DNA from: Oscillospiraceae bacterium
GTDB taxonomy: Bacteria; Bacillota; Clostridia; Oscillospirales; Ruminococcaceae
Assembly (NCBI GenBank): GCA_014799385.1
Contig: JAAVIC010000015.1
Location: forward strand, 1 to 54,545
Direction of reading: 5' to 3'
DNA: 54,545 nt
This document shows positions 7,575-30,008 of this stretch, piece after piece. The notes below the pieces were generated by a model. The model made no database searches. It was not told the origin of the DNA and saw only the letters and a list, made by a program, of their open reading frames with translations. Within the stretch, counting starts at the first letter, position 1; each line of letters opens with the position of its first letter. The translations under genes and the position numbers were made by a program.

Positions 7575-7648
7575 GATGTATGCCGCCGTATTCTTTGTTT
7601 AATGCAAACCTTTTTTGAATCACAAAGAAATTTTGTTGAGTAATCTAC
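7575..7648 (+). repeat. Direct repeat, copy 2 (partner at 1302-1376)
   Basis: See copy 1: 36 identical bases followed by a diverged half. It lies just upstream of the MMPL operon promoter, so the two copies enclose the transporter/GLUG unit. Confidence 0.75.
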
Positions 7649-7735
7649 AGTATCTCAATATTGCATTCAAGCCAGCTGCTGTTCATTATATCCAGCTTGA
7701 TTCTTGTTTACTTTTACGCTATAATAATATCATAA

Positions 7736-7867
7736 ATCGGTGGTAATGCTCTCGCTGCCTTTATCAAAAATGACCACATATCTGACCATAGACAGAGTTG
7801 GAGCACACGGAAACAACGGATACAAGACCGCCAAAGAGCATTTCTCACGGAACGGAAACGGCTATAA
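7736..7867 (+). pseudogene. Possible C-terminal coding relic
   Basis: An open stretch of 43 codons (GGNALAAFIKND..SWSTRKQRIQDRQ..) follows a stop and ends at 7865-7867. Its composition looks protein-like, but there is no start or ribosome site. It ends some 40 bp before the tRNA-Pro fragment and may be the tail of a gene from an earlier integrated element. I do not recognise the family. Confidence 0.25.
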
Positions 7868-7904
7868 AAAGCCATTCGTAACGAAGAGGGCTTTTCTCCT
7901 ACTC

Positions 7905-7949
7905 TTCGGGACGCAGAGGCCGTGGGTTCGAATCCCGTCGCCTCGACCA
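7905..7949 (+). repeat. tRNA-Pro 3'-half fragment (att-like)
   Basis: These 45 bases match the anticodon loop through CCA end of the complete tRNA-Pro(CGG) at 29762-29838 with one mismatch (AGGCCG versus AGGTCG). The 5' half of the tRNA is absent; upstream sequence instead forms an unrelated hairpin (CGAAGAG..CTCTTCG). A 3' tRNA half beside a broken integrase is the usual scar of tRNA-targeted integration. It lies in inverted orientation to the intact tRNA. Confidence 0.85.
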
Positions 7950-8150
7950 CACATAAACCGTCTTGTAGAGCCGTTTTGCAGCTTGCAAGGCGGTTTTTAA
8001 TTTTACAAGAAATTAACGCTTTGTGCGCTGTTTGTGCGCTATTTCCATTAAACAATATGAAACAATACGGACTGCACTCTATTGAGGTACAGTCCGTTTC
8101 TTTATGCCAATTTAATGTGCTTGCTGCTTTGAGGTGCTGGGTTCAGCATA

Positions 8151-8512
8151 TCACCGAGAATATTTACGGTGCTTCAATCCATTCCGCGCGAGAAACTTGC
8201 TGAATTGTTTCGTAGGTGTCATTGGGTTCATCATCTTGCCGTTCCATTGAGTAAAGACCCAATTGCCGCAGGGTAACCTTTGGTTATTCGTCCATTGAGA
8301 ACCGAGACGCTGTGCGTTCTCAATTTTCTCGACTTTGAGCATTTTCAAGAGTTCAACACAGCCTTCGTTGATGGTAACGGTTCGCGTTTCATTGTCCTTA
8401 GGGGGCTTGGTAGCGAGCGGCTGACCTTTGTCTCAATCGTGATTTTGTGTTGATCGAAATCAATATCCGAGAATTTCAGCGAGACCAGCTCCCCGCGCCG
8501 CGCATTGCGCCT
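8151..8512 (-). pseudogene. Broken tyrosine-family integrase
   Basis: On the minus strand the pieces RRGELVSLKFSDIDF, DNETRTVTINEGCVELL and VFTQWNGKMMNPMTP..FSKFLARNGLKH match the middle of phage-type tyrosine recombinases in order. The first Arg of the catalytic set (ARRGEL) is present. A frameshift occurs near 8415, and the gene stops before the HxLRH..Y catalytic end. The N-terminal arm-binding domain is also missing. It lies ~200 bp from the tRNA-Pro fragment, as expected for an element end. Confidence 0.85.
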
Positions 8513-8588
8513 ATCCCGTTTCGTTGAAGTTTTCAGTAAATTGCAGTTACGGATGTGATATACTGGAAAAAGAAAGGAAGTGGTGCTT

Positions 8589-9314
8589 ATGGGTTTTGTA
8601 CAGCTTTCGGACGACTTGACAAACTGGGAGTGGCTAGAAGATAAGAACACTGTTTACGTTTATATTCGTCTGCTCTTGGCGGCAAGCTGGGGCGAGAAAG
8701 ATTATAAGGGTGTACACTTACAGCGCGGACAGCTGATAATCTCACAGCGCGAATTTGCCGAAAAATGCGGTATGTCACGGCAAGAGTTGAGGACAATTTT
8801 AGACCGTTTGATAGCAACCCACAAGATAACCCAGACATCAACCCACAAATTCAGCTTAATAACGCTGATTGAGTATGATTGTGCAACCCAGCCGCCAACC
8901 CGTAGCGCACCCGAAAAGCAACCCACTATCAACCCACCTACTTTATTAAGAACAAACATACAGAATATCAAACAACCAAACAACGCGCTTGCGCGCGAGG
9001 GCGGCGGATTAAACAGCAGCTTTGAAAAATTCTGGGCTGCTTATCCGAAGAAAACCGCAAAACAGAACGCTCTTAAATGCTGGATAAAGCTGAATCCCAA
9101 TGAGGAATTAACCGCTAAAATCCTTGCGTCTTTGGAACAGCAAAAACGCTCCGTTCAGTGGACGAAGGACAACGGGCAATTCATTCCTTATCCAGCGACT
9201 TGGCTCAACGGCAAACGTTGGGAAGACGAATTACAGGAGGTAAACGAAAATGGAAAACATAACCGAGATATTAGCAGCCGTTCAAAATCGGATTGGCTTG
9301 CAGGTTTCGAATAA
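8589..9314 (+). CDS. Phage-type replisome organizer (DnaD/O-like)
   Basis: Starting at the ATG at 8589, eight bases after AAAGGAAG, gives 241 aa. The N-terminal part is a winged-helix domain (MGFVQLSDDLTNW..LIISQREFAEKCGMS), then a low-complexity linker, then a C-terminal segment FEKFWAAYPKK...FIPYPATWLNGKRW typical of replication-initiation proteins of clostridial phages and integrative elements. It overlaps the downstream DnaC-like gene by 65 bp. The pair probably opened and loaded helicase at the element's origin. Confidence 0.85.
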   Translation: MGFVQLSDDLTNWEWLEDKNTVYVYIRLLLAASWGEKDYKGVHLQRGQLIISQREFAEKCGMSRQELRTILDRLIATHKITQTSTHKFSLITLIEYDCATQPPTRSAPEKQPTINPPTLLRTNIQNIKQPNNALAREGGGLNSSFEKFWAAYPKKTAKQNALKCWIKLNPNEELTAKILASLEQQKRSVQWTKDNGQFIPYPATWLNGKRWEDELQEVNENGKHNRDISSRSKSDWLAGFE

Positions 9315-9972
9315 CAGCGAAACTCAAGGGAATTTTGTTGATTCCGAGAGCTTTGCGCCCCCGCCCGAATCGCCCAAACAGCTGCGGGAGCGTTTAATCG
9401 CAAGCGGATTCCCGGAGGACTACATAGACCGCTCCCCCGCCGAATATCAGGTGGACGATAACAATCGCGAGGCAATGGAGAAAGCAAAGGAATTTGTGAA
9501 TGAGCCAAACGGCGCGAAAGGACTGTACATCTGCGGACCGTATGGAACGGGCAAAACGTGGCTCGCCGTACTTATCGGGCGAAAAATGGCGGAGCGCGGG
9601 AAGTGGGTCGCTTTCGGAACGTTCAGCCAAATCACAAACAATTTGCAGCGTGCGCTTAAATCCAACGGCGAATACGAACGGCTGTGGGCGCGTTACACCG
9701 AAAAAGCCGAATTGCTTATTATTGACGATATGGGCAAGGAAAAGCCCTCGGAGTGGAAATTACAGACCCTGTTTGACATTATCGACGCTCGCGAACATAA
9801 AAAACTATTCACGGTTTTTACGTCCAATTACAACCTTGCGGAGCTTTGCGAACGTATAGCCCCCTCCGATAGCGACAATATCACAGCGGGAGCTATTCGT
9901 TCACGTCTTGGAGGAAAGCATTCCTCCGAAAAATACGTGCCGCTTGTTTTGGGCGGCGAGGACAGGCGTTAA
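9250..9972 (+). CDS. DnaC-like ATP-dependent helicase loader
   Basis: The 240-aa AAA+ protein starts after AGGAGG. Walker A is GPYGTGKTW (~residue 95), Walker B is LLIIDDMGKE (~155), and the sensor region is FTVFTSNYN, followed by IRSRLGG (arginine finger). These match DnaC/IstB-type loaders that deliver replicative helicase to an organizer such as the product encoded just upstream. It is a normal length and appears intact. Confidence 0.9.
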   Translation: MENITEILAAVQNRIGLQVSNNSETQGNFVDSESFAPPPESPKQLRERLIASGFPEDYIDRSPAEYQVDDNNREAMEKAKEFVNEPNGAKGLYICGPYGTGKTWLAVLIGRKMAERGKWVAFGTFSQITNNLQRALKSNGEYERLWARYTEKAELLIIDDMGKEKPSEWKLQTLFDIIDAREHKKLFTVFTSNYNLAELCERIAPSDSDNITAGAIRSRLGGKHSSEKYVPLVLGGEDRR

Positions 9973-9987
9973 ACGAGAAACGCGCTT

Positions 9988-10039
9988 AAAGTGCTTTGTG
10001 CCGCTGATGTTGGGCGGAGGTAGCAGGCGCGGAAAATAA
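9988..10039 (+). pseudogene. Duplicated tail of a DnaC-like gene
   Basis: Just after the dnaC-like stop, a frame reads KCFVPLMLGGGSRRGK and stops near 10039. It closely parallels the true end KYVPLVLGGEDRR at 9930-9972. It looks like the last codons of a second dnaC paralogue left by recombination. Confidence 0.5.
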
Positions 10040-10182
10040 TACATGGCTTGACGACATAAGCACACGTCTTATTTACATTGCTGCTGTTTGTATGAAATAA
10101 AAATGCTCCGAAAGCCAATGCAGCCCCCGAAGCGAAAACTTGTCCCAATTTTATTATACACGAAAATCGGGGGGGCTGTCAA

Positions 10183-10278
10183 GTGACTTGCGAAACTATT
10201 GCGGAATTGATTAATGAAGCTAAATCCCTAAAGCACACAAGCCCCATAAAACGCAAATTTGAGCGTCTGCGGCGGTGA
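10183..10278 (+). CDS. Possible 31-aa small protein
   Basis: The GTG at 10183 follows a GGGGGG run by seven bases and opens a 31-codon frame (MTCETIAELINEAKSLKH..KFERLRR). The product would be short, charged and helical. A TATTATACA sequence ~25 bp upstream could be a -10 box. Nothing confirms translation; codon use resembles neighbouring element genes. Confidence 0.35.
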   Translation: MTCETIAELINEAKSLKHTSPIKRKFERLRR

Positions 10279-10285
10279 GCAATAA

Positions 10286-10314
10286 AAGCCGCTCCCCAAT
10301 CCGGAGAGCGGCTT
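10286..10314 (-). terminator. Intrinsic terminator of the RHH/DUF4160 operon
   Basis: AAGCCGCTC pairs with GAGCGGCTT. On the minus strand it is followed by TTTTATT, immediately after the last gene of the operon. Confidence 0.75.
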
Positions 10315-10317
10315 GTG

Positions 10318-10551
10318 TTATTCAATTCCTAATTCTTTCTTCAATGACTTAATGAGTACTTCGGAAAGATCGATACCCAATTCATCAACTTTATCCGCTA
10401 ACCATTTCGGCAGTTCGACCTCGACAGTCACAAGCTCCTCGCTGAATACCGTTTTATCCCCAACGAGCGGCTTGAAAAGTGTAACAAAGGCTTCAAGCTG
10501 TTCTTCTGAAAAGTTATCAATAATAATCCGTGCTTCTTCTCTGATGTTCAT
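10318..10551 (-). CDS. Small antitoxin-like protein
   Basis: The ATG at 10551 is preceded by AAGAAAGAG and gives 77 aa. The N-terminal half (MNIREEARIIIDNFSEEQLEAF) resembles short helical segments found in Firmicutes addiction proteins. The C-terminal half (VTVEVELPKWLADKVDELGI..) looks like a ribbon-helix-helix or dimerisation unit. It is the last gene of a four-gene minus-strand operon, 15 bp behind the DUF2442 gene. A role as antitoxin or regulator is inferred from size and context only. Confidence 0.6.
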   Translation of the reverse strand: MNIREEARIIIDNFSEEQLEAFVTLFKPLVGDKTVFSEELVTVEVELPKWLADKVDELGIDLSEVLIKSLKKELGIE

Positions 10552-10566
10552 TAAAATCACTCTTTC

Positions 10567-10863
10567 TTACGAAATCGCTCGGAACTGTTCCGTAACATCT
10601 GTGCAGCTTTCAATTGTGAACGGATCTATATCAATACATTCCGATGGGTCGCAGTTTCCCGACATATCCCAAGCAACGGTATCATTCAAAACCGTAAGCC
10701 GCTCGGCAAAAAACTCTTTATCACGCAATTTCTCAAAAATGCCGCCTTTGCTTATCAGCGGCTTAGCGTCATATCGCTTTATTGTGCCGTTTGCCATATA
10801 TGCGAATACGATGTAATCTTCACCGGCAACAGCTTGAACAACAGCAGGGAAAATATTCTCCAT
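10567..10863 (-). CDS. DUF2442-type protein
   Basis: The 98-aa product starts after GGAGGATTTATT. It contains the small beta-rich fold with YIVFAYMANGTIKRYDAKPL and FNDTVAWDMSG-like segments (here LNDTVAWDMSGNCD..IDIDP) typical of DUF2442. In many bacteria DUF2442 sits next to DUF4160, as here (12 bp downstream of it), and the pair has been proposed as toxin-antitoxin. No catalytic residues are evident. Confidence 0.75.
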   Translation of the reverse strand: MENIFPAVVQAVAGEDYIVFAYMANGTIKRYDAKPLISKGGIFEKLRDKEFFAERLTVLNDTVAWDMSGNCDPSECIDIDPFTIESCTDVTEQFRAIS

Positions 10864-10875
10864 AATAAATCCTCC

Positions 10876-11136
10876 TTACTTCAAGGGCTGTATTTTGAAT
10901 AAAGGCTGTCCGCGTTTTGCAAGCTCCCAATCGTCCATTAGCTCGGTTTGGCGAAGTACACACCAACCCAAGACAAGTTTCAACTGACTGTTTGGGAGTG
11001 CGCCGCGCAGCACAACCGCGTTTTTGATATCAATCAACGCTTTATTTCCCGCATATTCAACGTGGAAATGCGGCGGGTTATGGTCATCATAGTACATTGT
11101 ACATCTTATTCCGTGAAAGGAACTTATTTCGGGCAT
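10876..11136 (-). CDS. DUF4160-type protein, putative toxin-antitoxin partner
   Basis: The ATG at 11136 follows AGGGAG by eight bases, five bases after the stop of the RHH gene, and encodes 86 aa. The signature MYYDDHNPPHFHVEYAG with conserved His/Pro is diagnostic of DUF4160, followed by LKLVLGWCVLRQTELMDDW. The order RHH regulator, DUF4160, DUF2442, small antitoxin-like protein suggests a compact stabilisation module on the former mobile element. Confidence 0.8.
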   Translation of the reverse strand: MPEISSFHGIRCTMYYDDHNPPHFHVEYAGNKALIDIKNAVVLRGALPNSQLKLVLGWCVLRQTELMDDWELAKRGQPLFKIQPLK

Positions 11137-11141
11137 TATTA

Positions 11142-11348
11142 TCACTCCCTATTCTCTCTTTCTGCGCTTTGTATGTCCTGCTCCAAGAGGTCAACTATGA
11201 GCCCTGTGAGGCTTTTGCCACGCTTCTGGGCGTGTGTCTTGTAACGGTCCTTATCCCCGAGCGGAAGATTTAATGTTAGTTTATCACGCTTTTCACGCAT
11301 ATATTTCATTGTTGCTTGTTTTGCACTATCATTATACACACCATTCAC
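11142..11348 (-). CDS. Ribbon-helix-helix regulator
   Basis: A GTG near 11348 (11339 is an alternative) gives ~68 aa: NGVYNDSAKQATMKYMREK followed by DKLTLNLPLGDKDRYKTHAQ and GKSLTGLIVDLLEQDI. The beta strand plus two helices is an Arc/MetJ-like fold. It heads the operon and overlaps repeated ACACGnCTATAT boxes at its promoter, so autoregulation is likely. Start choice is uncertain because the purine-rich AAGGTGG lies close to several GTG codons. Confidence 0.7.
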   Translation of the reverse strand: MNGVYNDSAKQATMKYMREKRDKLTLNLPLGDKDRYKTHAQKRGKSLTGLIVDLLEQDIQSAERENRE

Positions 11349-11383
11349 CACCTTACTGCTTTTATTATAGCATTTTTTTATAA

Positions 11384-11468
11384 ACACGTCTATATACAAA
11401 ATGCACAAATACACGGCTATATTTTTGTTAATATTTTTTCAAAACCCTCTCGAAATATAGCCGTGTAT
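11384..11468. promoter_or_regulatory. Operator array between divergent genes
   Basis: ATACACGGCTATATTT (11409-11424) is repeated as a perfect inverted copy at 11453-11468. A third half-site (ACACGTCTATATAC) lies at 11384-11397 over the RHH promoter (-10 TATAAT on the minus strand at 11364-11369). A rightward TATAAT is at 11473-11478. The layout fits binding by the RHH protein to control both directions. Confidence 0.65.
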
Positions 11469-11529
11469 ATGTTATAATATAATTACAGAAAGGGAAAGGA
11501 AAATCCCAAACACCAGAAAGGCTAACGCA

Positions 11530-11788
11530 ATGAGTATGAACGAACTTACCAAGAAGGTGCGCGAGTTGAAAGAACTCAAAACTCGCCGCCGAAATCACTG
11601 CCATAGAGGACAACCTCAAGGCGGAAATGACGGCTCAGGGAGTGGAGGAAATGCAAGTAGATGTTTTCAAGCTCCGCTACAAGACCGTAGTTTCCGGCCG
11701 CTTTGGCAGCAAGGCTTTCAAGGCAACACACAAGGAACTCTACAAGCAGTACAGCAAACCCACAGAGTGCCGCCGCTTCACGGCTTGA
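11530..11788 (+). pseudogene. Frameshifted small phage/ICE protein
   Basis: The first frame reads MSMNELTKKVRELKELK, then a 1-nt insertion in an AAAA run near 11580 moves the rest into another frame: LAAEITAIEDNLKAEM...FKLRYKTVVSGRFGSKAFK...CRRFTA, stopping at 11786-11788. Joined, this is a ~86-aa protein of a family common in clostridial integrative elements (helical N-terminus, KYK..V..SRFD/GS motif). It follows the operator array. A sequencing or assembly error is possible but the locus is otherwise decayed. Confidence 0.7.
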
Positions 11789-11879
11789 TGAATGCTCTTT
11801 GCTAGCGCATTTTTGCGCGTTCCGCACTGAAAATGCAGCTTTCAGCTTGTATGTGTCTGAGCCAACAATGATAATCTTC

Positions 11880-11922
11880 CAGACTGTAAAAAAGTCAATT
11901 TAATTCGCATTTCTCGACAGTC
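11880..11922 (+). repeat. Dispersed 45-bp repeat, copy 1
   Basis: CAGACTGTA..AAGTCAATTTAATTCG..TTTCTCGACAGTC is ~85% identical to the reverse complement of 33861-33906. Its ends (ACTGT/ACAGT) are inverted, so it can form a hairpin. Confidence 0.6.
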
Positions 11923-11935
11923 CGGATAATCTTCT

Positions 11936-12268
11936 TTAGCTTTTCTTAATACATCGACCGATTTTACTTACAGCAACACAGAGTACAATCGTGATCACCA
12001 TATCCGGTAAAGTGTTGCCTACAACAATATCGACTCTCATCAGCAGTCGGTAGATAATAAATCCCACAATCCAGATAATCAGATTTTGTATGTTGAACTT
12101 TCTCTCGCCGCTGTCCTTCTTCAAAATAAAAAAGTCCGCGATCTGAATAGCGATCATAGGCGCAAATACCGAGCCGATAAAATACAAGAAATCGGTAATA
12201 TCGGTAAGCGGCAAAAATATAGCGCCGACAGTGCCGATGACTGCCGCTGCGATTGCCACCCATTTTCC
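11936..12268 (-). pseudogene. cytX: 3' part of cytX, fused in frame to a thiD fragment
   Basis: The last ~111 codons of an NCS1-type permease of the CytX (hydroxymethylpyrimidine transport) group remain: IGTVGAIFLPLTDITDFLYF, then SVFAPMIAIQIADFFILKK and two further membrane helices. The first ~300 residues are gone; the reading frame instead continues upstream into ThiD at NPNT|GKW. With most transmembrane helices lost it cannot be a working permease. The CytX assignment rests on these motifs and the thi context. Confidence 0.75.
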
Positions 12269-12700
12269 AGTGTTGGGATTATCGATACGCTTGCCCTCAA
12301 ACCAATGATATTCACCGTTTGCATACAAAAGGTCATTGGCATCATTGACGCTGTGTCCGCCCTTCAACAGAACCGCGCAGCCGTAATCGTCACCGATTCG
12401 CTTGGCGGCTGCAAGCATATCCTCCTCCGTTTTAATTTCAAGCTCCGAGAGAATCTGCGCCTCGGGAATATTCGGCGTAATGAGTGCGGCAATGGGCAGA
12501 AGTTCGTCGATAAGGGTCTGCACTGCGTCTGTCTTCATAAGAGAAGAGCCGCTGGTTGCCACCATAACGGGGTCTACTACCACATTTTTTGCCTTATGGT
12601 ATCTCAGTCTTTCCGCAATTACACGGATAAGTTTATCGGAGGATACCATACCTATCTTGACCGCGTCGGGGAAAATATCCTCAAATACCGCGTCAATTTT
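12269..12700 (-). pseudogene. thiD: Internal fragment of thiD
   Basis: About 144 codons of HMP/HMP-P kinase survive: DIFPDAVKIGMVSSDKLI, VVVDPVMVATSGSSLM, LITPNIPEAQIL and CAVLLKGGHSVNDANDLLY, ending at RIDNPNT. The N-terminal substrate region is missing, and so is the C-terminal GTGCTLSS motif that contains the catalytic Cys/Asp. The fragment is joined to thiE upstream (different frame) and to cytX downstream (same frame), each by a deletion. The kinase step is therefore absent from this locus. Confidence 0.85.
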
Positions 12701-12702
12701 GC

Positions 12703-13185
12703 GTTTGCGGGAATGGGAACGGCACTGCATATGTCTCTCAGCGTATCGACAGATGTAAGTACGGTTTTTACCTTTGTGGTTGTGGGAAAAATCGCTCCCA
12801 CGCCGAGATAATCCGCGCCTTGTTCATAAGCGTCTTTCGCCCACGGAACGGTCTTGGCAGTTGCACCGACTATTTTATTATCGCCCATCAGCTTTCGAGC
12901 CGCAGAAACAGGCATATCGCTTGTTCCCACGTGAACCCCCTCTGCGTCAACGGCAAGCGCAACGTCCACGCGGTCGTCTATAATAAGCGGAACATTATAC
13001 CTCGTGGAAATTGCGTGAACCTTTTCTGCGAGGTCGATATATTCACGGGTGCTTTTCTCCTTTTCGCGGAGCTGTAACAGCGTTACGCCGCCCGTTAATG
13101 CCTGTTCCACGCGAAACAGAAATTCCTCCTCGCCGTAATTCGTGCTGTCGGTTATAAAATATAAACTTGAATCAAACTTTTTCAT
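12703..13185 (-). pseudogene. thiE: 5' part of thiE (thiamine-phosphate synthase), truncated
   Basis: The ATG at 13185 follows GAGGGAAC. Residues 1-161 match ThiE: LYFITDST, GGVTLLQLREKEKSTREYI, LIIDDRVDVALAVDAEGVH, VGATAKT and GADYLGVGAIFPTTTK. At ..CSAVPIPAN the family sequence stops and a 16-residue unrelated tail reads through the thiD fragment. The final strands and the phosphate-binding GG..I loop are lost, so activity is doubtful. It sits 9 bp behind thiH. Confidence 0.85.
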
Positions 13186-13194
13186 TTTGTTCCC

Positions 13195-14449
13195 TCACAA
13201 ATAAAGATAGTCGTTCAGGACGGGCTGCAAGCCCTCGCTCTCGATATCCTTGTACATTTTATCAAGGCTGCGGCTGTCATCTATCTCAAACTGCTCGCCG
13301 CCCTGAACTTCGTCCGATTCTTTTCCCGTGTATTTGCTTTCGTGGTCGCCGATTCCGGTGGAAACGCCTGCGGAAACCTTGGTCGCCGCTATTTTTACAA
13401 TACCGTTTCGGAACTCGGCGCTTTCGCGGGAGGATACCGTAATTCCGACAAAGGGGAGGAAAATGCGATATGCGCAAAGCACCTGACAAAGCTGTTTTTC
13501 GTGAACGTCAAGAGGATTTATCTTGTCGTTGTTGATGATAGGTCTTAACCTTGGACAAGAAAGCGACATCTCCGCGTGAGGATATTTCCGTTGAAGATAA
13601 TAAACGTGCAAGGCACTCGCCAAAGCGTCCTTGCGGAAATCGGAAAGTCCCAAAAGCGCCGAGAACGCAACTCCGCGCATTCCGCCCATCAAAGCGCGCT
13701 CCTGTGCGTCAAAACGGTACGGTCACACACGCTTATGCCCCAATAGATGTAACTGTTCATATCTGTCGGAATCATAGGTTTCTTGAAAAACGGTGACATA
13801 ATCCGCGCCGCATTCGTGAAGATACTTGTATTCGTCCGTATTGACGGGATATATCTCAAGCCCCACCATACGGAAATATTTCCTCGCCAATTTACAAGCC
13901 TCGCCGATGTATTCCACATTGCTCTGACATCTGCTCTCGCCGGTTAGGATAAGTATCTCTTCCATTCCGCTGTCGGCAATGACCTTCATCTCTTTTTCGA
14001 TTTGCTCCGGCGAGAGCTTCATACGGCTGATGTGATTATAGCAGTTAAAGCCGCAATAAACGCAGTAGTTCTCGCAATAATTCGCTATGTAAAGCGGAGT
14101 AAAAAGGTACACCGTATTTCCGAAATGTCTGCTTGTTTCAAGCCTTGCCCTCTGCGCCATTTCCTCAAGAAAAGGCTCCGCCGCCGGAGAAAGAAGCGCC
14201 TTGAAGTCCTCAATTGTACAGATGTCGTGCTCCAATGCCGCTTTTACATCTTTGGCAGTGTATTTTGAATAGTCGTAGGAGTTTATCTGCTCCATAACGC
14301 TGGCGCACACGTTTGATTCGATTTTTTCCATTCCGGGCAGATATTCCATATGGTTTTTGCGCGCGGACGGGTCGGTTTCAAGCCGGTGGTTTCTTTTGAA
14401 GTGCTTCGGGAGATAAATGCTCCGAATCCACGAAAAACTGATTTTCCAT
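13195..14449 (-). pseudogene. thiH: thiH (2-iminoacetate synthase), two frameshifts
   Basis: Reading starts at ATG 14449 after GAGGGGG (MENQFFVDSEHLSPEALQKK). The frame breaks near 14372, resumes as ETDPSARKNHMEYLPG.., runs through the radical SAM motif CENYCVYCGF, then breaks again near 13720 after HLLGHKRV. It continues in another frame as RALMGGMRGVAF to ..NDYLYL at 13195. The joined product would be the full tyrosine lyase that makes dehydroglycine for the thiazole ring. Both breaks are in otherwise well-conserved sequence, so the gene is recently inactivated or affected by sequencing errors. Confidence 0.85.
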
Positions 14450-16798: not shown

Positions 16799-18397
16799 TT
16801 ATAAGAGAAGATTAACCCCGCGCAGTTTTTGCGGCATTTTGCGCGAAGCGCAAAATCGAATTGCCGTTAGGGCAATTCGCGCAAATGCCTTTACATCGAG
16901 CAAAAATCCCCTTGCGTAAGCAAGGGGATTTTCCTCGACTGGTGCCCCCAATATCGTCAAAGGAGAAACATCACCCTTTAAATTGCGAGGAATCACCTCG
17001 GATTCCTCGCGGCAATTAAAGTTCATAACAAATTTATCGTCATAAACATGAATTGAATTTACAAAAGTGTTAATAACGCGCTGTTTGTTATCGGTATTCG
17101 ATAAATCCAGCTTCTCCATATTTTTAAGCCAGAACTCGACCTGTTCTTTTGTCAAAATCTGCGTTTGGATTTCTTCCCTTGCGATTTTGACCTCCAAGTC
17201 GGTTTGTAAGGTTTCCAATTCCGTCAAGCGTTTTTTAGTCGTTGAAGTGATAATACCCTGTTCTATTGCTGCCATAACATTGGCAATATTTTTCTCCACA
17301 TCAGCCAATTCTCGTTGGTAGATAAGAACGGTTGTGTTCTCTTTCTCCTGCCAATCCGTCACGCGTTTGGATATTTCGGATATAACCTCGTCAACAAAAA
17401 CGTATTTTACTATTGTATTGAAAATCGTTTTTTCAACGGAGTCTTTCTTTATAGCCTTTTTGTTACAGCCATCAAACTTTTTAGCCTTTACACATTTGTA
17501 GTAATGGTACTTGCTGCCTGTTCGACCTGTGCCGCTCTCACCCGCATAAACCGAGCCGCAATTTCCGCACATCAACTTGCCCGTCAATAAGTACTTGACC
17601 TCAGACCGTGACGCGGACGGAGCGTATTTATTCTGTGCTATACGCTGCTGCACAAGCGCGAACAATTCCTTTGAGATTATTGAGGGTATTCCGTCCGGTA
17701 TGATTATATCACGAAAATGATATTCGCCTATGTACTTTCGATTTTGTAAAACCGTATTCATCGAAGTTTTAGTAAGCTTCTTTCCTCGTGAAGAAACAAT
17801 ACCGTTATCGCTGAGGTACTCTACAATATCTTTGATCTTCTTTCCGCTCGCATACATAAGGAACGCTTCTTTAACGAACGGCGCGACCAGCTCGTCAACT
17901 TTAAAGTGGTGGTCTTTGTCGATCTTGTAGCCAACGGGAATAGACCCACCATTGTACTTACATTTGAGCGCGTTCTCGGTCATACCTCTTATGACTTTCT
18001 CGGATAACTCAGCGGAGTAATATTCCGCATACCCCTCAAGCACCGATTCGAGGATAATTCCCTCAGCACCCTCGGATATGACCTCCGTAGCAGAAACAAC
18101 TTTCACTCCATTTTTGCGGAGTGCTGCTTTGTAGTGTGCGCTGTCGTAGCGGTTGCGAGCAAAACGGTCGAGTTTCCAAACGATAACCATATCGAAAAGC
18201 CCGCCGGAACTCTCCTTGACCATTCTCTGAAATTCGGGACGATTGTCGGTCTTTGCCGACACCGCTCTGTCAATGTACGAGTCGACGAGCGTGTAACCCT
18301 TACGGGTAGCAAACTCGCGGCACTCACGCAACTGCCCCTCGATACTTTCCTCGCGTTGGTTATCGCAGGAGTACCGCGCATAAATTACTGCCCTCAC
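16799..18397 (-). CDS. Large serine recombinase
   Basis: The GTG at 18397, eight bases after AAGGAGG, gives ~532 aa. The N-terminal resolvase domain begins RAVIYARYS (catalytic Ser ~10) with SIEGQLRECREFA, WKLDRFARNRYDSA. A recombinase domain and a zinc ribbon follow (CGNCGSVYAG..YYKC..C, ~300-335). A coiled-coil C-terminal region completes the family plan for integrative elements. The final ~45 residues (..LTILGAPVEENPLAYARG..) run through a strong hairpin at 16903-16932 and look atypical, perhaps because the 3' end was recombined at an attachment site. Its element context here is fragmentary. Confidence 0.9.
   Translation of the reverse strand: MRAVIYARYSCDNQREESIEGQLRECREFATRKGYTLVDSYIDRAVSAKTDNRPEFQRMVKESSGGLFDMVIVWKLDRFARNRYDSAHYKAALRKNGVKVVSATEVISEGAEGIILESVLEGYAEYYSAELSEKVIRGMTENALKCKYNGGSIPVGYKIDKDHHFKVDELVAPFVKEAFLMYASGKKIKDIVEYLSDNGIVSSRGKKLTKTSMNTVLQNRKYIGEYHFRDIIIPDGIPSIISKELFALVQQRIAQNKYAPSASRSEVKYLLTGKLMCGNCGSVYAGESGTGRTGSKYHYYKCVKAKKFDGCNKKAIKKDSVEKTIFNTIVKYVFVDEVISEISKRVTDWQEKENTTVLIYQRELADVEKNIANVMAAIEQGIITSTTKKRLTELETLQTDLEVKIAREEIQTQILTKEQVEFWLKNMEKLDLSNTDNKQRVINTFVNSIHVYDDKFVMNFNCREESEVIPRNLKGDVSPLTILGAPVEENPLAYARGFLLDVKAFARIALTAIRFCASRKMPQKLRGVNLLL
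16903..16932. terminator. Perfect hairpin inside the recombinase 3' end
   Basis: AAAATCCCCTTGC and GCAAGGGGATTTT form a 13-bp perfect stem with a 4-nt loop, followed by U-rich sequence. It lies within the reading frame, which suggests the annotated C-terminus is an extension past an original terminator. Confidence 0.6.
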
Positions 18398-18468
18398 ATT
18401 AACGACCTCCTTGTTATACATTATAATTATATAGTCTGTCAAAAACTTTTCCATCATTCTTTAATATG

Positions 18469-24464: not shown

Positions 24465-25119
24465 CGGTATCACCTCCGGCAGTTTTTTTGGAAACATCCG
24501 CGATGAAAGCCTCGGCGTTTCCTTTTATTTCATCATCCATCAATACCAAGCCCATTTTTGCGAGTGCCTCAACGATAAATTCAAACTTGTGCGCTATTTC
24601 TTCGGCAGTCGCGGGAAATATTGACGGCATTAACCAGAAATTGATAAGCGGGAGCAGTTCGGCGATCTCTTTTGCGTATTCCGTTTTAATTGAACCGTCG
24701 CGCTGTCCTTCTTCAATAAGTTCAAGCCATTTTGGGGTAAGGTATTCCCTGTTTGACTTGATCGCGTTCATAAGAATATGCGGGTCTTTCAAGATAGGAA
24801 TTGCCTGCATATTGAATTGATTGCGTTCGGTATCGGAGCCGTTGATTTTCAGAAGTTCCTTGATTTTCTGCAAGCCGTTCAGATCAGATCGTTTCTCTAC
24901 TGCTTCAAAAGGATTGTTTTCAAAGAACATACGGTCGCCCAATGTCTGCATAATTTCTTCCTTGGACTTGAAGTGATGATAGATCGCGCCTTTGGAAAGA
25001 CCGCATTTTTCCATAATATCCTGCATAGTAGCCGCATCGTAACCCTTCTGGGCAAATACCTCGCTTGCTGCTGTAAGGATTTTATTCTTAGCTAATAGTG
25101 ATTTTTCTTCTTGTTTCAT
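24454..25119 (-). CDS. TetR-family regulator
   Basis: The ATG at 25119 follows GGAGG. The 221-aa protein has a classic TetR N-terminus (AASEVFAQKGYDAATMQDIMEKCGLSKGAIYHHFKSKEEIM) and a helical ligand domain. A perfect palindrome at 25131-25169 directly upstream is its likely operator, giving autoregulation of the regulator and the overlapping ABC exporter gene. Confidence 0.92.
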   Translation of the reverse strand: MKQEEKSLLAKNKILTAASEVFAQKGYDAATMQDIMEKCGLSKGAIYHHFKSKEEIMQTLGDRMFFENNPFEAVEKRSDLNGLQKIKELLKINGSDTERNQFNMQAIPILKDPHILMNAIKSNREYLTPKWLELIEEGQRDGSIKTEYAKEIAELLPLINFWLMPSIFPATAEEIAHKFEFIVEALAKMGLVLMDDEIKGNAEAFIADVSKKTAGGDTDEK

Positions 25120-25130
25120 CTATTTTCCTC

Positions 25131-25169
25131 CACAATTAAAACAAACCGACTATCGGTTTGTTTTAATTG
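25131..25169. promoter_or_regulatory. TetR operator palindrome
   Basis: ACAATTAAAACAAACCGA-CTA-TCGGTTTGTTTTAATTGT: 18-bp perfect arms around a 3-nt centre, 11 bp upstream of the TetR start. Confidence 0.85.
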
Positions 25170-25257
25170 TACAATATTTTATTTAAAATGTCAAGAGTAA
25201 AATTAAAAAAATTGCTTGTGTTTTTTTACCACAAACAGCAACAATTATATTCGTTGA

Positions 25258-25327
25258 ACAAACACAGCTCTTTCGGGAAAACAAATAAAGGAGAACCGCC
25301 TTGGCAGTTCTCCTTTGTTCGGTATGT
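25258..25327 (+). repeat. Copy of the tRNA-Pro downstream flank
   Basis: ACAAACACAGCTCTTTCGGG.., the hairpin AAAGGAGAAC..GTTCTCCTTT and GTTCGGTATG closely parallel 29690-29761, which lies directly downstream of tRNA-Pro. Same orientation, ~80% alike by eye. It also works as a terminator for the PIN gene. It marks the left edge of the AT-rich island. Confidence 0.65.
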
Positions 25328-25363
25328 CAAACACTACAAAAAATTTTTCTTTTACCCCCACAA

Positions 25364-27196
25364 TTAGCTGTTTAAAGCGGATTCGATAATTTCGACGATT
25401 TTTGCTTCTTTTTCGGCAAGTTGGTTTTGCTCAATTATAAAGCAATCTAATTCCTTGATTATTTCATCAAATTCATATTCAATTTCATCGTTTGCACCAT
25501 CAGAAACACCACCATCCTCATCGAAATCCAGATAACCAACTAATAATTTGACATAACCGCCTATTTTGTCGCCTTGATTGTTCGTCAAATTGATATTGAT
25601 GAATTCTTCGTTCCCTTCAATGGGGCATATCTTGATTTCGTCAATAGTAAAAATTAGTTCACTACCATCTATTCCTTTGATAACAACACTTTCCCCATAA
25701 TTGAGAGTATCAGTTAAAGAATCTTCTTCAGAAATTTCAGATGCTTTTTCATATTTGTCGTTTAACCATTTTTTTATTTCTTCCACTTCGGAATCTTTAA
25801 TGTTATCTACATTGACAATATGGGGAATATCTGATATATCTGACAAATTCTCATATATGGATTTGATTGTTTTTTGAGAATTGGAATTATTAAGTTCATC
25901 TAATAACAAATCGTAAATATTGCAAAAATCTTCAAATTTACGATGTAGCTCATTAACGGTTTCAAATCTTTCAAGTATTTCGCTGGAAAGTTCTGAATCA
26001 GGCAGGGCATCCTCCAAATATGACTCGTAGCTTCCAAGTGGAATAAATCCAAGATATTCTCTATCCATATCATGAATTTCCTGCTCATAATTATCGACAG
26101 AATTCCCTTTAATTTCATATCTATCTTTTCTTGAATCTCCACCCAAAATAATTGTGAACGGTAATATTTTAAATGATTTTGTTGCACGCTCAAGATCAAT
26201 TCTACATCCAAAGTATGCGCAGTGTTCTTCTCTCATTTGGATATTCTCAACAAACAAATAGTCTTTTGTTTCAGAATCCCAAGGAGCATTCTCATAATCT
26301 TCGTAATAACAATCAACAGAAATGTTAGCATTACATAACAGAGTGACTTTCGATGTATCTTTTGATATTTCGTCTACAGAATGAACCCTAAATGTTATAT
26401 CCGAAATGTTATTTAGATAGAACTCATCGTAATCAAAACCGGAAACAATCCCGTCCTTATCATATGAGAGCCCTCTAACATCAATGTTTTCGTTAAGTTT
26501 GATATATTCTAATACAGCGGCGCTGATACGGAATTGCAACTCTTTTATTTGGTTCATTGTTTCCGTATATGCTGCATCTTCTTTATTTAATGAATCAAAT
26601 AACTCACCTAACGAATTAAAGAAGATGTGGTTTTTGGTTTGGCAGCAAGCCTTTTTAAATCCTTCATCGTTACTTACTATAACCACGTCTTCGGTTTCAC
26701 CAAAACGTTTTTTTATCTGATCGGCAATAAAGGCATCAGGAAATTCTTTTCTCTTTTTCTCTCCCTCTTCAAATGGCGGATTAATTTCAAAATAATCATC
26801 TATTATTCTTTCCAAGTTTATTAAATCCGTGCCAAGAATTTCCGCATTGATTTCATGAGTGAAATCATCAAATAGTTCCTCGCTTTTTTTGACAAGAGTA
26901 TCTTTATCTTTTGAAATCTCCAGCAATCTGTTTAAACCTATATAGTTTACTAAATGCTCTGTGGATTCCTGCAATACTTCTGTCCTTAATTTCCTCGCAA
27001 TGCTACATACTTTTTTTACTTGCTTAGCAATGTGCTTTTTTGATTCTCTAACTACAATGTTGCTTAAAACTACTTTGATCAATCCCTTGTCAACATAATT
27101 TTTGAGAAGTCTAAGTGTGCTGCCTTCACTTAAATCATATTTGGCAGCATCAAATATATTTGTATCAATAGTAACTGCTATCGGATATTTGAACAT
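25364..27196 (-). CDS. Large PIN-domain protein (DUF4935-like), putative RNase
   Basis: The ATG at 27196 follows AAAGGAG by eight bases, giving 610 aa. The first ~200 residues form a PIN-like nuclease domain: AVTIDTNIFDAA (Asp11), LSNIVVRESKKHI (Glu51), FPDAFIADQI (Asp154) and VVIVSNDEGFKKA (Asp177), a full acidic set. The remaining ~400 residues are acidic, without recognised motifs; they include a beta-rich block and helical segments and may sense a ligand. It lies 275 bp downstream of the radical SAM gene in the same direction. PIN proteins cleave RNA; target unknown. Base composition is much more AT-rich than that of flanking genes. Confidence 0.85.
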   Translation of the reverse strand: MFKYPIAVTIDTNIFDAAKYDLSEGSTLRLLKNYVDKGLIKVVLSNIVVRESKKHIAKQVKKVCSIARKLRTEVLQESTEHLVNYIGLNRLLEISKDKDTLVKKSEELFDDFTHEINAEILGTDLINLERIIDDYFEINPPFEEGEKKRKEFPDAFIADQIKKRFGETEDVVIVSNDEGFKKACCQTKNHIFFNSLGELFDSLNKEDAAYTETMNQIKELQFRISAAVLEYIKLNENIDVRGLSYDKDGIVSGFDYDEFYLNNISDITFRVHSVDEISKDTSKVTLLCNANISVDCYYEDYENAPWDSETKDYLFVENIQMREEHCAYFGCRIDLERATKSFKILPFTIILGGDSRKDRYEIKGNSVDNYEQEIHDMDREYLGFIPLGSYESYLEDALPDSELSSEILERFETVNELHRKFEDFCNIYDLLLDELNNSNSQKTIKSIYENLSDISDIPHIVNVDNIKDSEVEEIKKWLNDKYEKASEISEEDSLTDTLNYGESVVIKGIDGSELIFTIDEIKICPIEGNEEFININLTNNQGDKIGGYVKLLVGYLDFDEDGGVSDGANDEIEYEFDEIIKELDCFIIEQNQLAEKEAKIVEIIESALNS

Positions 27197-27407
27197 TTTC
27201 AGCACTCCTTTGCCATAAGTTTCTTGATATGTACACAATATGTTTTATAAGTTCCCCAAAGCTATGCGAATTTTCAGCATCCAAATCTGGCTTTGGGTAA
27301 TTCGGTTTCTGCCGCTTTTTATTTTTAGTATTGCTTTTGAGCAGTTTTATTTTGGTATCTAGTTTGAAATCTAGACCAATCACTGTAAAACCGTATTTAA
27401 AAAGCAA

Positions 27408-27435
27408 TTATAACAAAATGCTTGCGATTATCGCA
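27408..27435 (-). promoter_or_regulatory. Possible promoter/operator before the PIN gene
   Basis: A minus-strand TATAAT lies at 27408-27413 and a perfect palindrome TGCGAT-T-ATCGCA at 27423-27435, inside the radical SAM-PIN gap. No clear -35 box is present, so the site may need an activator or be controlled through the palindrome. The rest of the 274-bp gap shows no convincing gene. Confidence 0.45.
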
Positions 27436-27470
27436 CCTGCATTAGTAAGATATCGACAAAAGATTAACCT

Positions 27471-28559
27471 TTAAGGAATTACTTCGGTATCATAAATTTC
27501 GGCGTGAAAGTTGGACAAGTCCATATTTTGGTTAGAAACAATTTGTTCAATTTTTTCAATAGATTCCACAACCATATCAACTAATATTCGTGTGAGCTTA
27601 CAATATACCCTAATATTATTCTGCGGCTGAGTTTCTAACATTTTTCTGCACCTTCCCAGGCAAATTGATGCTATACGGCACTGCGAACAATCACCGAATA
27701 AATTAAAATGATTTTTGTGACTTATTAAGTTGTGGTTGTCATCATATATTGTTCCCAGAGAATTATTGGCATTCTCTATATATTCATCGCACAGATAAAT
27801 ATTTCCATCAACATCAATAGCTTGAATCGTAGATCCGCATCCACATCTAAATGAAGCTAAAGCCTCATTCGATAAAAGTGAAAGCACAATTCTGTTGAAA
27901 GGAATAATATTTAAAACAACACCAGATGAAAGAGCGTCAATCCAATCTCTAAACAAACGCTGTAAATTTTGCTTATATTCTGCAATAAATTTTTCAGGGT
28001 TGTTAAAATTCTCTTTGTTTACAATTTGCCAATGCACAAAATCAAACGAATTCAACAAGTTTTTGACAGAATAATAAAGATTTGAATTTTCCTCAAGTGT
28101 TATTCTCCCAATAACTTGGGCTTTAGTCTTGCCCTTAATTGCCCTTACGTTATTCAGTATTGTTTCATAACTTCCGACAGGTTTGAATTTCTCATGATTT
28201 TCTTTATCTCCATCAACGGCAACTAATATTGTCTGCAATTTTTTCAAAATAAAATCTGGAAGCCTGTCAAGTAGCAAACCATTAGAGTAAATTGAATAAT
28301 TCAATCTCAAATGCTCAGTTCGTTTGATTATTTCCTCAATAATATTCGGAACCAAGCTTGGTTCTCCACCAAAAAAAACAATACTGTTATTTTCGCAGTG
28401 ATTAATTTTTATATCTCTCTCAATATATTTGCATATACTTATTATTTTATCTTGTGTAATTGATAATGTGTTTTTTTCCCTATTATGTACTAGATTTTTG
28501 GCAAAACAATATTCACAATTTAGATTGCAACGATATGTGAGAAATATAATATATTCCAC
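27471..28559 (-). CDS. Radical SAM/SPASM-domain enzyme
   Basis: The GTG at 28559 begins two bases after the cyclase stop, so the two are translationally linked. The 362-aa protein opens with IIFLTYRCNLNCEYC (Cys11, 15, 18 bind the SAM cluster) and has VFFGGEPSLVP, the GGEP motif. The C-terminal ~110 residues hold a SPASM-like set of cysteines (CGCG..YLCDEY..CSQC..CLGRC..C) for auxiliary Fe-S clusters. Such enzymes modify peptides or proteins; it resembles the AF1577-type peptide-modifying group, but no precursor peptide is evident nearby. The substrate could be the PIN protein, the cyclase or a small unannotated peptide. Confidence 0.88.
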   Translation of the reverse strand: MEYIIFLTYRCNLNCEYCFAKNLVHNREKNTLSITQDKIISICKYIERDIKINHCENNSIVFFGGEPSLVPNIIEEIIKRTEHLRLNYSIYSNGLLLDRLPDFILKKLQTILVAVDGDKENHEKFKPVGSYETILNNVRAIKGKTKAQVIGRITLEENSNLYYSVKNLLNSFDFVHWQIVNKENFNNPEKFIAEYKQNLQRLFRDWIDALSSGVVLNIIPFNRIVLSLLSNEALASFRCGCGSTIQAIDVDGNIYLCDEYIENANNSLGTIYDDNHNLISHKNHFNLFGDCSQCRIASICLGRCRKMLETQPQNNIRVYCKLTRILVDMVVESIEKIEQIVSNQNMDLSNFHAEIYDTEVIP

Positions 28560-28561
28560 CC

Positions 28562-29230
28562 TTAATTTCCGCCTTTCTTCAATGATATTGGGTCTTCTGG
28601 ATCCTTAGGATTTCCAAAATTCTTTCCTTCATACTGCCCATAGAAATTGTACACTTTTAATGTTTCACCATGTTTAATTTCAAATTCCTTACCAGGCAAG
28701 GCATGAATCTCACTATGATCTCGTTGCCTTAATATTTCATTTGCAAAATCTTCATGTATTAATATTTGATTTTCCCGAGCAAGCCCCATAACACGATTGG
28801 CCAAATTAATACCATAACCAAAAACATTGTTTTTTTCGTTTTGATCTCGATAGACTTGGCAGGGCCCTTTAGCAAGCCCCATACGAATTTTAAAATCAAT
28901 TTTATCTACAAGGCGACAATAGAACTTCTTGACAATATCAAGAATCTCATCGTTCCTGATTTGCGGATTAAACGCAAAGGAATATCCATCCCCAGTAGGG
29001 ATAAGTATTAAATCATTTTTATCATTCACTTCATTCCAGTTGTAATTATCCCATAACTCATCTACAATCGATGCCTCAATACCACGAATACAATCTTTCA
29101 TTTGATCATTTGTAGTATTTTTAGTAAATCCTACAATATCAAAAAACATAATGACCAAATTTGCTGACTTATATATTCCCTTATTCTCGTTAGGAATAAA
29201 TGCGAATGGATCTCTATTCTTTTTCGACAT
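28562..29230 (-). CDS. Class III nucleotide cyclase with atypical base-recognition residues
   Basis: The ATG at 29230 follows GGGGTG; 222 aa, essentially one catalytic domain. Metal sites are FFDIVGFT (Asp31) and PTGDGYSFAF (Asp81); Asn142 and Arg146 in GINLANR stabilise the transition state. The Lys that usually lies four residues before the second Asp is Ile77, and the Asp of the DxWG-type motif is Asn135 (NNVFGYG), so canonical adenine reading is not expected. Small stand-alone cyclases of this kind include the pyrimidine cyclases of Pycsar phage defence. First gene of a unit with the radical SAM enzyme. Confidence 0.85.
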   Translation of the reverse strand: MSKKNRDPFAFIPNENKGIYKSANLVIMFFDIVGFTKNTTNDQMKDCIRGIEASIVDELWDNYNWNEVNDKNDLILIPTGDGYSFAFNPQIRNDEILDIVKKFYCRLVDKIDFKIRMGLAKGPCQVYRDQNEKNNVFGYGINLANRVMGLARENQILIHEDFANEILRQRDHSEIHALPGKEFEIKHGETLKVYNFYGQYEGKNFGNPKDPEDPISLKKGGN

Positions 29231-29240
29231 CTTTTACACC

Positions 29241-29689
29241 CCACATTAAATTGGTATAGTTGAGATAATATAACAATTATCATCATTGTATTTATAATAA
29301 TTATACCATATGCTAACTAAAAAAACAATCCGTTTTCTAACTGGAAATTGCCAATCTACAACGTCTTTGCGTAAGATGTCGATATTTTGCGTGAAATGCA
29401 CGATTTTTGTATTTTTTGTCATATTTTCATCTAAAACTTTGTTAATTTTAAATATAACAAAAGCCCCTGAAAATTACCAATTTTGACACATTTAGTTACA
29501 GCTAATCATGCAGTAATGAATTTTGCCACAAAACAAAAAAACGCCCGCAGCTTCATCACGCCGCAGACGATTTTAAAGGTAGACCACCACGAACACAGTG
29601 TTACCGGGATAAAATATCAACAAATTCACATCCTCGTGATTGTTTGTATTTATCCGATTTGGATTACGCTATACTCTTGGAACTACCAC
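29241..29689. other. Gap between cyclase and tRNA-Pro flank
   Basis: AT-rich non-coding sequence. A minus-strand TATAAT near 29305 (GGTATAATTATT) may drive the cyclase. A degenerate third copy of the AACACAG..CCGGGATAAA motif (see 29690-29761) occurs at ~29592-29615. No gene is supported. Confidence 0.5.
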
Positions 29690-29761
29690 ACCAAACACAG
29701 CTTTTCCGGGATAAAAAACAAACAAAGGAGAGCCATCCAAGTGGTTCTCCTTTGTTCGATA
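29690..29761 (-). terminator. tRNA-Pro terminator and flank (repeat partner of 25258-25327)
   Basis: AAAGGAGAACCA..TGGCTCTCCTTT followed by GTTTGTTTTTT on the minus strand terminates the tRNA transcript (stem 29724-29753). The same block recurs at 25258-25327 in direct orientation. Confidence 0.75.
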
Positions 29762-29838
29762 TGGTCGAGGCGACGGGATTCGAACCCACGACCTCTGCGT
29801 CCCGAACGCAGCGCTCTACCAAGCTGAGCCACGCCTCG
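29762..29838 (-). tRNA. tRNA-Pro (CGG)
   Basis: Complete cloverleaf on the minus strand: acceptor CGAGGCG/CGCCTCG, D arm GCTC..GAGC, anticodon stem CTGCG/CGCAG with loop TTCGGGA (anticodon CGG), T loop GTTCGAATC, and encoded CCA end. Its 3' half is repeated in inverted orientation at 7905-7949. tRNA 3' ends are preferred integration sites. Confidence 0.97.
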
Positions 29839-29913
29839 ACATACGAAACCAACGGAACGATTCCCTGAAGTTTCCAAATCGTGGAAAATCATAGCATTCC
29901 GTCAACAATAAAC

Positions 29914-29942
29914 ATTATAACATATCTTTTTGAAAAAATCAA
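29914..29942 (-). promoter_or_regulatory. tRNA-Pro promoter
   Basis: Minus strand TTGATT (29937-29942), 17 bp, TATAAT (29914-29919), ~75 bp before the tRNA. Confidence 0.7.
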
Positions 29943-29979
29943 GTACTTTTTCAAAATTTTTTTATTTTTCTAAATGTTC

Positions 29980-30008
29980 TTGACAAAATGAATATTATGT
30001 GATATAAT
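29980..30008 (+). promoter_or_regulatory. Consensus promoter for a non-coding RNA
   Basis: TTGACA (29980-29985), 17 bp, TATAAT (30003-30008). No reading frame with a ribosome site follows for 600 bp. Confidence 0.85.

Follow-up and report, generated by a model that had tools for sequence, protein, structure and literature searches.

We analysed a 54,545-nucleotide stretch of contig JAAVIC010000015.1 from an Oscillospiraceae bacterium, called the window throughout, and within it an island of three minus-strand genes (25364..29230) that lies beside a tRNA-Pro gene and encodes a class III nucleotide cyclase, a radical S-adenosylmethionine enzyme (rSAM) with a SPASM domain and a PIN nuclease-like protein. 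The reading that we favour as a whole, at a probability of about 35%, is that the cyclase and the rSAM form a mobile two-gene signalling and modification module, probably used in conflict with phages or plasmids. Our confidence is higher than this for the island and for the pair as a unit, and lower for a role in defence. Judged from its sequence, the locus may point to a form of microbial self-defence that has yet to be studied; the most interesting lead is the rare group of rSAMs to which the window enzyme belongs, together with an apparent TIR/rSAM switch at two loci of the group.

In the mechanism that we propose, the island would be horizontally acquired cargo 3' of tRNA-Pro, and its core would be the cyclase and the rSAM, carried on one message and probably coupled in translation. 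The cyclase would make a 3',5'-cyclic nucleotide, and the rSAM would be the output or maturation enzyme, acting by radical modification of a protein or peptide partner once the module is switched on. Other rSAMs of the group would be gated differently: in an archaeal gene run by a class III cyclase domain, and in two Clostridia by an apparent DNA inversion against a TIR gene. What all have in common would be an rSAM reaction that is silent most of the time, may carry a cost and serves in conflicts with phages or with other mobile elements; the two window proteins presumably act jointly to this end.

The cyclase and radical SAM pair

The open reading frames, strand and coordinates of the three island genes were confirmed and are listed here with the flanking features.

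28562..29230, minus strand: single-domain class III nucleotide cyclase, 222 aa (Pfam Guanylate_cyc; catalytic D31, D81, N142, R146)
27471..28559, minus strand: radical SAM/SPASM enzyme, 362 aa, GTG start (Pfam Radical_SAM; seven-cysteine SPASM; near TIGR04084)
25364..27196, minus strand: PIN_12 nuclease-like protein, 610 aa from ATG, alternative TTG start at 27238 (PIN_12, 3e-29)
29762..29838, minus strand: tRNA-Pro(cgg), 531 bp upstream of the cyclase start
29692..29763, minus strand: flanking repeat, upstream copy (tRNA-Pro 3' flank with hairpin; from repeat comparison)
25259..25326, minus strand: flanking repeat, downstream copy (terminator-like hairpin after the PIN gene; from repeat comparison and terminator scan)

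The sequence-only reading from which this work started had described three low-GC genes running in one direction beside tRNA-Pro, and this is borne out: the GC content at third codon positions is 0.28, 0.27 and 0.28 for the cyclase, rSAM and PIN genes, respectively, and in six flanking genes it is 0.44–0.46 (TetR, ABC, MATE and the gene at 30612) or 0.64–0.68 (aspS and the gene at 31586). This common composition marks the three genes as foreign. The cyclase and rSAM genes are 2 nt apart, as had been claimed. Their junction reads TAA-GG-GTG, and the end of the cyclase gene contains a purine-rich stretch resembling a ribosome site, so the two are probably co-translated. The gap between the rSAM and PIN genes is real but measures 274 bp rather than the 275 bp given before, and an 80-aa frame (27165-27407) lies in it. 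Terminator-like sites number eight in 25100-30000 versus 1.8 in shuffles; the two long-stem sites on the coding strand (25316-25287 and 29569-29542) both fall outside the three genes, and the sites within the genes or the rSAM–PIN gap have 5–8 pairs each. A 58-aa ATG frame (29246-29422) without a clear ribosome site immediately precedes the cyclase gene on its strand and may encode a leader or precursor peptide.

The cyclase matches Pfam Guanylate_cyc (1e-8; 35.5 bits against a cut-off of 21.9), is the sole PF00211 match in its genome and is closest among PDB structures to the adenylate cyclase 4p2f (1.2e-5). By alignment its catalytic set is complete, with the metal-binding Asp residues D31 and D81 and the catalytic N142 and R146, and no sensor domain was found by Pfam; the earlier description as a one-domain class III cyclase therefore holds. 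We infer that it makes a 3',5'-cyclic nucleotide of unspecified base. Its base-contact positions, by alignment alone, are I77, T79 and N135, assigned through what we take to be the positions of canonical enzymes; they differ from the residue pairs that we assume for purines and fall outside every residue set compared. The pyrimidine-cyclase sets in the excerpt of PMC11224242 are Y50/D94/R97, F100/R142/Q144 and F60/K104/F109.

Relatives of this cyclase are few. Across three overlapping genome sets a match was found in one of 100 relatives and one of 391 class genomes, in both cases the cyclase itself, and in two of 398 phylum genomes (itself and a generic cyclase at 24%); used as a single query or in a small cyclase alignment, it had no match in plasmid, phage or viral-contig collections. 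In the phylum, class III cyclases in general are not rare, Pfam cyclases being present in 49 of 299 genomes. A window-like rSAM (E ≤ 0.01) was absent from all 38 cyclase loci inspected (L002–L039, the Pfam cyclase loci of the phylum plus eight wider stretches, of which the first 30 are short-flanked).

The window rSAM matches Pfam Radical_SAM (5e-13), with a Pfam SPASM match under the cut-off. It has a CX3CX2C motif (C11, C15, C18) and the cysteines C239, C257, C291, C294, C300, C304 and C320, which we take to be a seven-cysteine SPASM pattern; all of these are invariant in the five aligned rSAMs introduced below. For all five the top NCBIfam model is TIGR04084, with 172 bits for the window protein and 149–197 for the other four, below the cut-off of 225. 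The next-best models for the window rSAM are PapB (133.6 bits against a cut-off of 340) and sulfatase-maturase, and because of these and the seven-cysteine SPASM the enzyme is expected to modify a protein or peptide. The FxsB model gives 43 bits against a cut-off of 370, and no leader-recognition domain was found by Pfam. Residues 5–123 only, the rSAM core, match viperin models (pVip, 1.5e-17; the NCBIfam model viperin_w_prok, 1.2e-16); at 60.7 bits against an NCBIfam cut-off of 180, assignment as a viperin (pVip) was rejected.

A rare radical SAM group and an apparent invertible switch

Two patterns, taken from the rSAMs of the window and L060, were used to seek relatives in 84,980 species, each represented by one genome; rSAMs that lack both patterns escape such a scan. 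It matched 171 stretches, of which five are rSAM relatives at E ≤ 1e-3, three of them close; L076 and L077 (51–57 bits) were excluded as lying outside the group. The group as we define it has five members, the window rSAM and the following.

L075: Deltaproteobacteria metagenome-assembled genome, 44% to the window rSAM over the alignment
L073: Methanoperedens (archaeon), 33%
L074: Lachnospiraceae metagenome-assembled genome, 31%
L060: genome G188, of the same class as the window (presumably Clostridia), 25%; found among 148 class genomes at 133.8 bits, the next match having 78.5

In leave-one-out profiles each of the five scores 286–420 bits with the other four, versus 197–230 for the best of 20 paralogues, and all share a D-x-[VI]-[YH]-W-Q segment and a C-terminal E-x-x-P end. 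Members are scarce: two of 245 genomes of the Lachnospiraceae class (that of L074 and G1157, with coordinates and score identical to those of G188), one of 118 genomes of the phylum of L075 (itself, plus two weaker paralogues) and one of 80 Methanoperedens relatives (itself; 29 of the 80 have a match at E ≤ 1e-40, the others scoring at most 228 bits). As a single query the window rSAM found no match in viral contigs; one alignment query found 11 viral loci, all at most 48 bits with the window rSAM, and another found none. The plasmid matches (92 records; 21–28% identity among 30 listed) and phage matches (51 records; 22–26% among eight listed) look like generic rSAMs, and the L074 rSAM has no plasmid match at E ≤ 1e-20. 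In the open-licence literature no paper on a cyclase–rSAM pair surfaced and none for TIGR04084, the TIR/rSAM inversion being outside that search.

A signalling gene lies close to the rSAM in four of the five loci: the window, L074, L060 and, less surely, L073. In L073 an operon-like run encodes a hydrolase, a hexapeptide transferase, a 454-aa protein, a glycosyltransferase 2 and the rSAM, with insertion-sequence and conjugation-type genes further out by eye. Residues 17–161 of the 454-aa protein are collinear with a profile of the window cyclase and 31 others through D..ST, GDG, an R/G..G.V strand and G..V...R; in single comparisons with this 32-cyclase profile hhalign gives E = 2e-5 with a probability of 77%, and hmmsearch gives 9e-7 over residues 24–125. 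Among frames of at least 70 aa in 25 loci, this is the sole cyclase-like match besides the window (E = 7.5e-4). We regard a divergent class III cyclase domain in this protein as probable rather than certain. Behind the cyclase-like domain the protein (L073 7427-8791) has a further C-terminal part of about 250 aa.

In L074 and L060 the signalling gene encodes a protein of 491–492 aa with an N-terminal TIR domain (Pfam, 2e-20 and 2.5e-19); the L074 protein only has a GNAT match just under the cut-off (18.7 versus 20.7 bits). TIR queries had no match in viral contigs or plasmids. L060 lies in a defence-type region with a DrmMII/type II methylase (538 bits) and the PADLOC candidate PDC-S31 (106 bits). 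The neighbours of the L075 rSAM are, by eye, peptide deformylase-, fmt-, DUF2007- and Sir2-like genes. No PIN like that of the window lies beside the other four rSAMs at E ≤ 0.01, and no small gene common to the rSAM loci was seen in frame lists from 80–100 aa up, shorter frames in the relatives not having been compared. As a control, 20 of 34 paralogue loci were fetched (3.6–16 kb each), and none contains a cyclase or TIR frame.

The TIR and rSAM genes are convergent in L060 and L074, and the pair has opposite orientations in the two genomes.

L060: TIR (+) 7647-9122; rSAM (-) 9226 to about 10314; Xer-like recombinase (-) 10421-11380
L074: rSAM (+) 9608-10693; 174-aa gene (+); TIR (-) 11294-12772; recombinase (-) 12835-13767

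The recombinase is thus followed by the rSAM in one genome and by the TIR gene in the other; inverted repeats were predicted from this and then found. In L060 they are 48 nt long and perfect (7590-7637 and 10323-10370), and in L074 there are 45 perfect nt (9519-9563 and 12794-12838) inside 57 nt at 91% (span 9507-12850); in both they sit just ahead of the TIR and rSAM starts. Order-1 simulation, with 100 runs per locus, produced inverted repeats of at most 14 and 16 nt. The repeats contain GGATAA-N7-TTATCC, in both arms in L060 and in one arm in L074, which we take to be an Xer-type core; it occurs in five of 170 loci, all from the L060 and L074 genomes, and not in the window with one mismatch allowed. 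The TIR proteins are 50% identical between the two loci, the rSAMs 61% and the recombinases 53%, so the shared arrangement does not stem from recent copying. Promoter scans of the TIR/rSAM loci gave sites no more numerous than in shuffles. Inverted repeats of this kind flanking the rSAM are absent from the window, L073 and L075, the one pair in the window being the terminator-like flanking repeat.

These features point to an apparent invertible switch. Phase-variable loci run by tyrosine recombinases are known, and L060 and L074 resemble them in their long inverted repeats with an Xer-like core and an adjoining recombinase; unlike them, the switch pairs two whole convergent genes, TIR and rSAM, and nothing such is present in the window.

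The tRNA-Pro hotspot and the PIN gene

A 226-base tRNA-Pro(cgg) probe matched 30 of 43 genus genomes (E ≤ 1e-10, own genome counted). Across the 30 loci read, again including our own and some that stop less than 200 bases from the tRNA, the sequence directly 3' of tRNA-Pro varies widely; about seven of them (L121, L126, L131, L132, L133, L134 and L141) have, by eye, serine or tyrosine recombinase-like frames just 3' of it, and 45-nt copies of the tRNA-Pro 3' half are found elsewhere. In this genus the region 3' of tRNA-Pro(cgg) is a hotspot for integration. One of the 3'-half copies lies in the window at 7905-7949 (98%, other strand) with replication-type genes behind it (DnaC-like, by eye), and may be an att-like remnant of another mobile element.

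The repeats that bound the island are 84% identical over 31 nt and 80% over 49 nt; they contain terminator hairpins and may be nothing beyond terminators. The TetR gene, sought as a route to an empty site, is present in two of 42 other genus genomes, and a clean empty site was not shown: synteny in G014 ends at the TetR promoter, and G019 keeps only part. Plasmid and phage records contain no match to the DNA of the island, whose exact gene order occurs in no other genome searched. Elsewhere in the window are a large serine recombinase with a zinc ribbon (16802-18457) and a segment with 87% identity to a sister genome (17960-25209). In sister genomes (L114, L115, L127, L129 and L130) the first 38–39 nt of tRNA-Pro recur in one or two copies, about 185–200 nt apart, upstream of the intact gene, as either integration scars or tRNA-derived repeats.

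The PIN protein matches PIN_12, which we take to be a synonym of DUF4935, across the full model. The acidic set reported for it stands: in an alignment with four viral relatives all of D11, E51, D154 and D177 are invariant; in one with three plasmid relatives this holds for E51, D154 and D177, and one relative has Glu in place of D11. Plasmid relatives were found in 51 records, none covering more than 80% of the query, and among the 30 listed the matches end at residues 314–347. The C-terminal part of about 400 residues that had been called unknown is so in part: for residues 340–610 no relative was found in plasmids or in 122 further genomes of the class, but a second conserved region, reaching to about residue 345, is shared with the plasmid relatives. 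The PIN_12 proteins of plasmids and prophages share with the window protein the PIN domain and this second region; the window protein is longer by about 220–245 residues, its last, which are lacking from the six plasmid relatives viewed (366–388 aa).

A cyclase or related rSAM was near none of ten PIN relatives (six of the 51 plasmid records and all four viral loci, with flanks mostly of 4–5 kb). One plasmid relative adjoins a gene annotated as AbiH, and in a viral contig or prophage (L168 4944-9930) a single gene separates PIN_12 from a Thoeris pair (ThsB, 193 bits; ThsA, 668 bits). PIN_12 therefore appears to be at home in defence-type cargo without being tied to the cyclase and rSAM, and the window PIN gene is most likely separate cargo sharing the island.

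Known systems and rival explanations

The cyclase/rSAM pair may work somewhat like Pycsar, in which a PycC pyrimidine cyclase is paired with PycTM or PycTIR, and in both the class III cyclase is small, stands alone and lies on an island of mobile type. The window pair differs in that no cyclic nucleotide-binding domain (CNBD), PycTM or TIR effector was found among 13 window proteins (the three island genes and ten others between 16.8 and 33.7 kb, not every frame there), which were scanned for CNBD, TIR, vWA, MoxR and VMAP; the membrane genes in this part are MATE, ABC and Rce1-like. The cyclase scores E = 0.034 (11.7 bits) with PADLOC PycC, its base-contact residues differ from the three sets in the PMC11224242 excerpt, and an rSAM partner is not part of Pycsar as the excerpt describes it. 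Membership was rejected on the PycC score and the missing effector.

The nearest described scheme, as far as the excerpt of PMC7159879 goes, is that of the VMAP/vWA-MoxR ternary conflict systems, in which cNMP cyclases and PIN, GNAT and glycosyltransferase domains serve as effector parts, an FxSxx peptide being the predicted substrate of a SPASM rSAM. All four domain types and the SPASM rSAM are shared parts, but the 13 window proteins contain no vWA, MoxR or VMAP, the gap frames have no FxSxx by eye, and the FxsB score is far under its cut-off; with none of the defining genes found, membership was rejected. The TIGR04084 (AF0577) family, the best model for all five rSAMs, is likewise not matched at its cut-off, and its 20 paralogue loci lack a cyclase or TIR.

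It is possible, although we lean away from it, that the island is stacked cargo: three unrelated genes gathered at a tRNA hotspot, the cyclase and rSAM adjacent by chance and sharing no pathway. The hotspot itself, the rarity of the cyclase in class and phylum, the island DNA without plasmid or phage match, the nearest rSAM (L075) standing without a cyclase and a tree that does not unite the five rSAMs would all fit such an origin. Chance accounts less well for the 2-nt junction, for a cyclase-like domain near a second group rSAM in an archaeon and for the paralogue loci, 0/20 of which have such neighbours. That the rSAM matures a small peptide encoded nearby under regulation by the cyclase, much as for ribosomally synthesized and post-translationally modified peptides (RiPPs), seems improbable: SPASM, the second-best PapB model, the 58- and 80-aa frames and the predicted FxSxx-peptide SPASM enzymes of cyclase-carrying conflict systems (PMC7159879, excerpt) speak for it, but neither frame has a ribosome site or repeated motif by eye, the loci have no small gene in common at the lengths compared and the rSAM has no leader-recognition domain by Pfam. 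A RiPP locus with a named precursor was rejected.

The sequence-only reading had proposed a signalling or defence system of three parts, with an infection signal leading to a cyclic nucleotide, maturation by the rSAM and RNA cleavage by PIN. What is supported of this is the adjacency of cyclase and rSAM on a mobile-type island and the immune-type signalling genes beside four of five group rSAMs; the inclusion of PIN is not. The three genes do share strand and composition, with no long-stem terminator between them, and the C-terminal part of the PIN protein is peculiar to it among the relatives aligned; against this are the 274-bp gap, the ten PIN loci without a cyclase or related rSAM and the four other rSAMs without a window-like PIN, and we consider such a system quite improbable. 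We see still less chance that the rSAM acts on a nucleotide, before or after the cyclase step, with a modified cyclic nucleotide serving as signal or poison. Cyclases and TIRs act on nucleotides or NAD and the rSAM core matches viperin models, but those matches are confined to the shared rSAM core; to our knowledge viperins have no SPASM, a domain indicative of protein or peptide substrates.

Several results weigh against the two-gene module that we prefer. No second copy of the cyclase/rSAM pair was found, so the recurrence in other genomes that had been proposed as a check did not appear; L075, with the nearest rSAM, has neither a cyclase nor a TIR by profile. No nucleotide receptor is identifiable, and the only PADLOC match of the cyclase is the PycC one given above. 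The signalling contexts are three rather than four, because L074 and L060 carry the same genes. The L073 454-aa protein has no Pfam or NCBIfam match and no BLASTP match to the window cyclase, a smaller cyclase alignment gives it an hhalign probability of only 20%, and a two-sequence alignment of the two misses the motifs, which profile methods alone align; a glycosyltransferase gene also separates it from the rSAM. The 0/20 contrast is weaker than its count because most control loci come from Methanoperedens relatives and are mutually close. In the rSAM tree, which carries a long-branch warning, the five are not monophyletic: the window rSAM and L075 stand together in an open fork with two paralogues, L073 and L074/L060 are elsewhere, the starred branches require two or more changes, and the five come together in 0% of 200 bootstrap trees.

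A wider proposal, which we put forward as a doubtful one, is that this rare SPASM rSAM group is the output of unnamed switchable conflict systems, in which it would be controlled by a class III cyclase in the window and Methanoperedens and, in Clostridia, would alternate with a TIR effector through recombinase-driven inversion, with radical protein modification as an immune output in itself. If this is true, radical SAM chemistry would join the outputs of cyclic-nucleotide and TIR-type immunity, beyond viperins, and there would be a defence-like locus that seemingly chooses between TIR and rSAM through DNA inversion.

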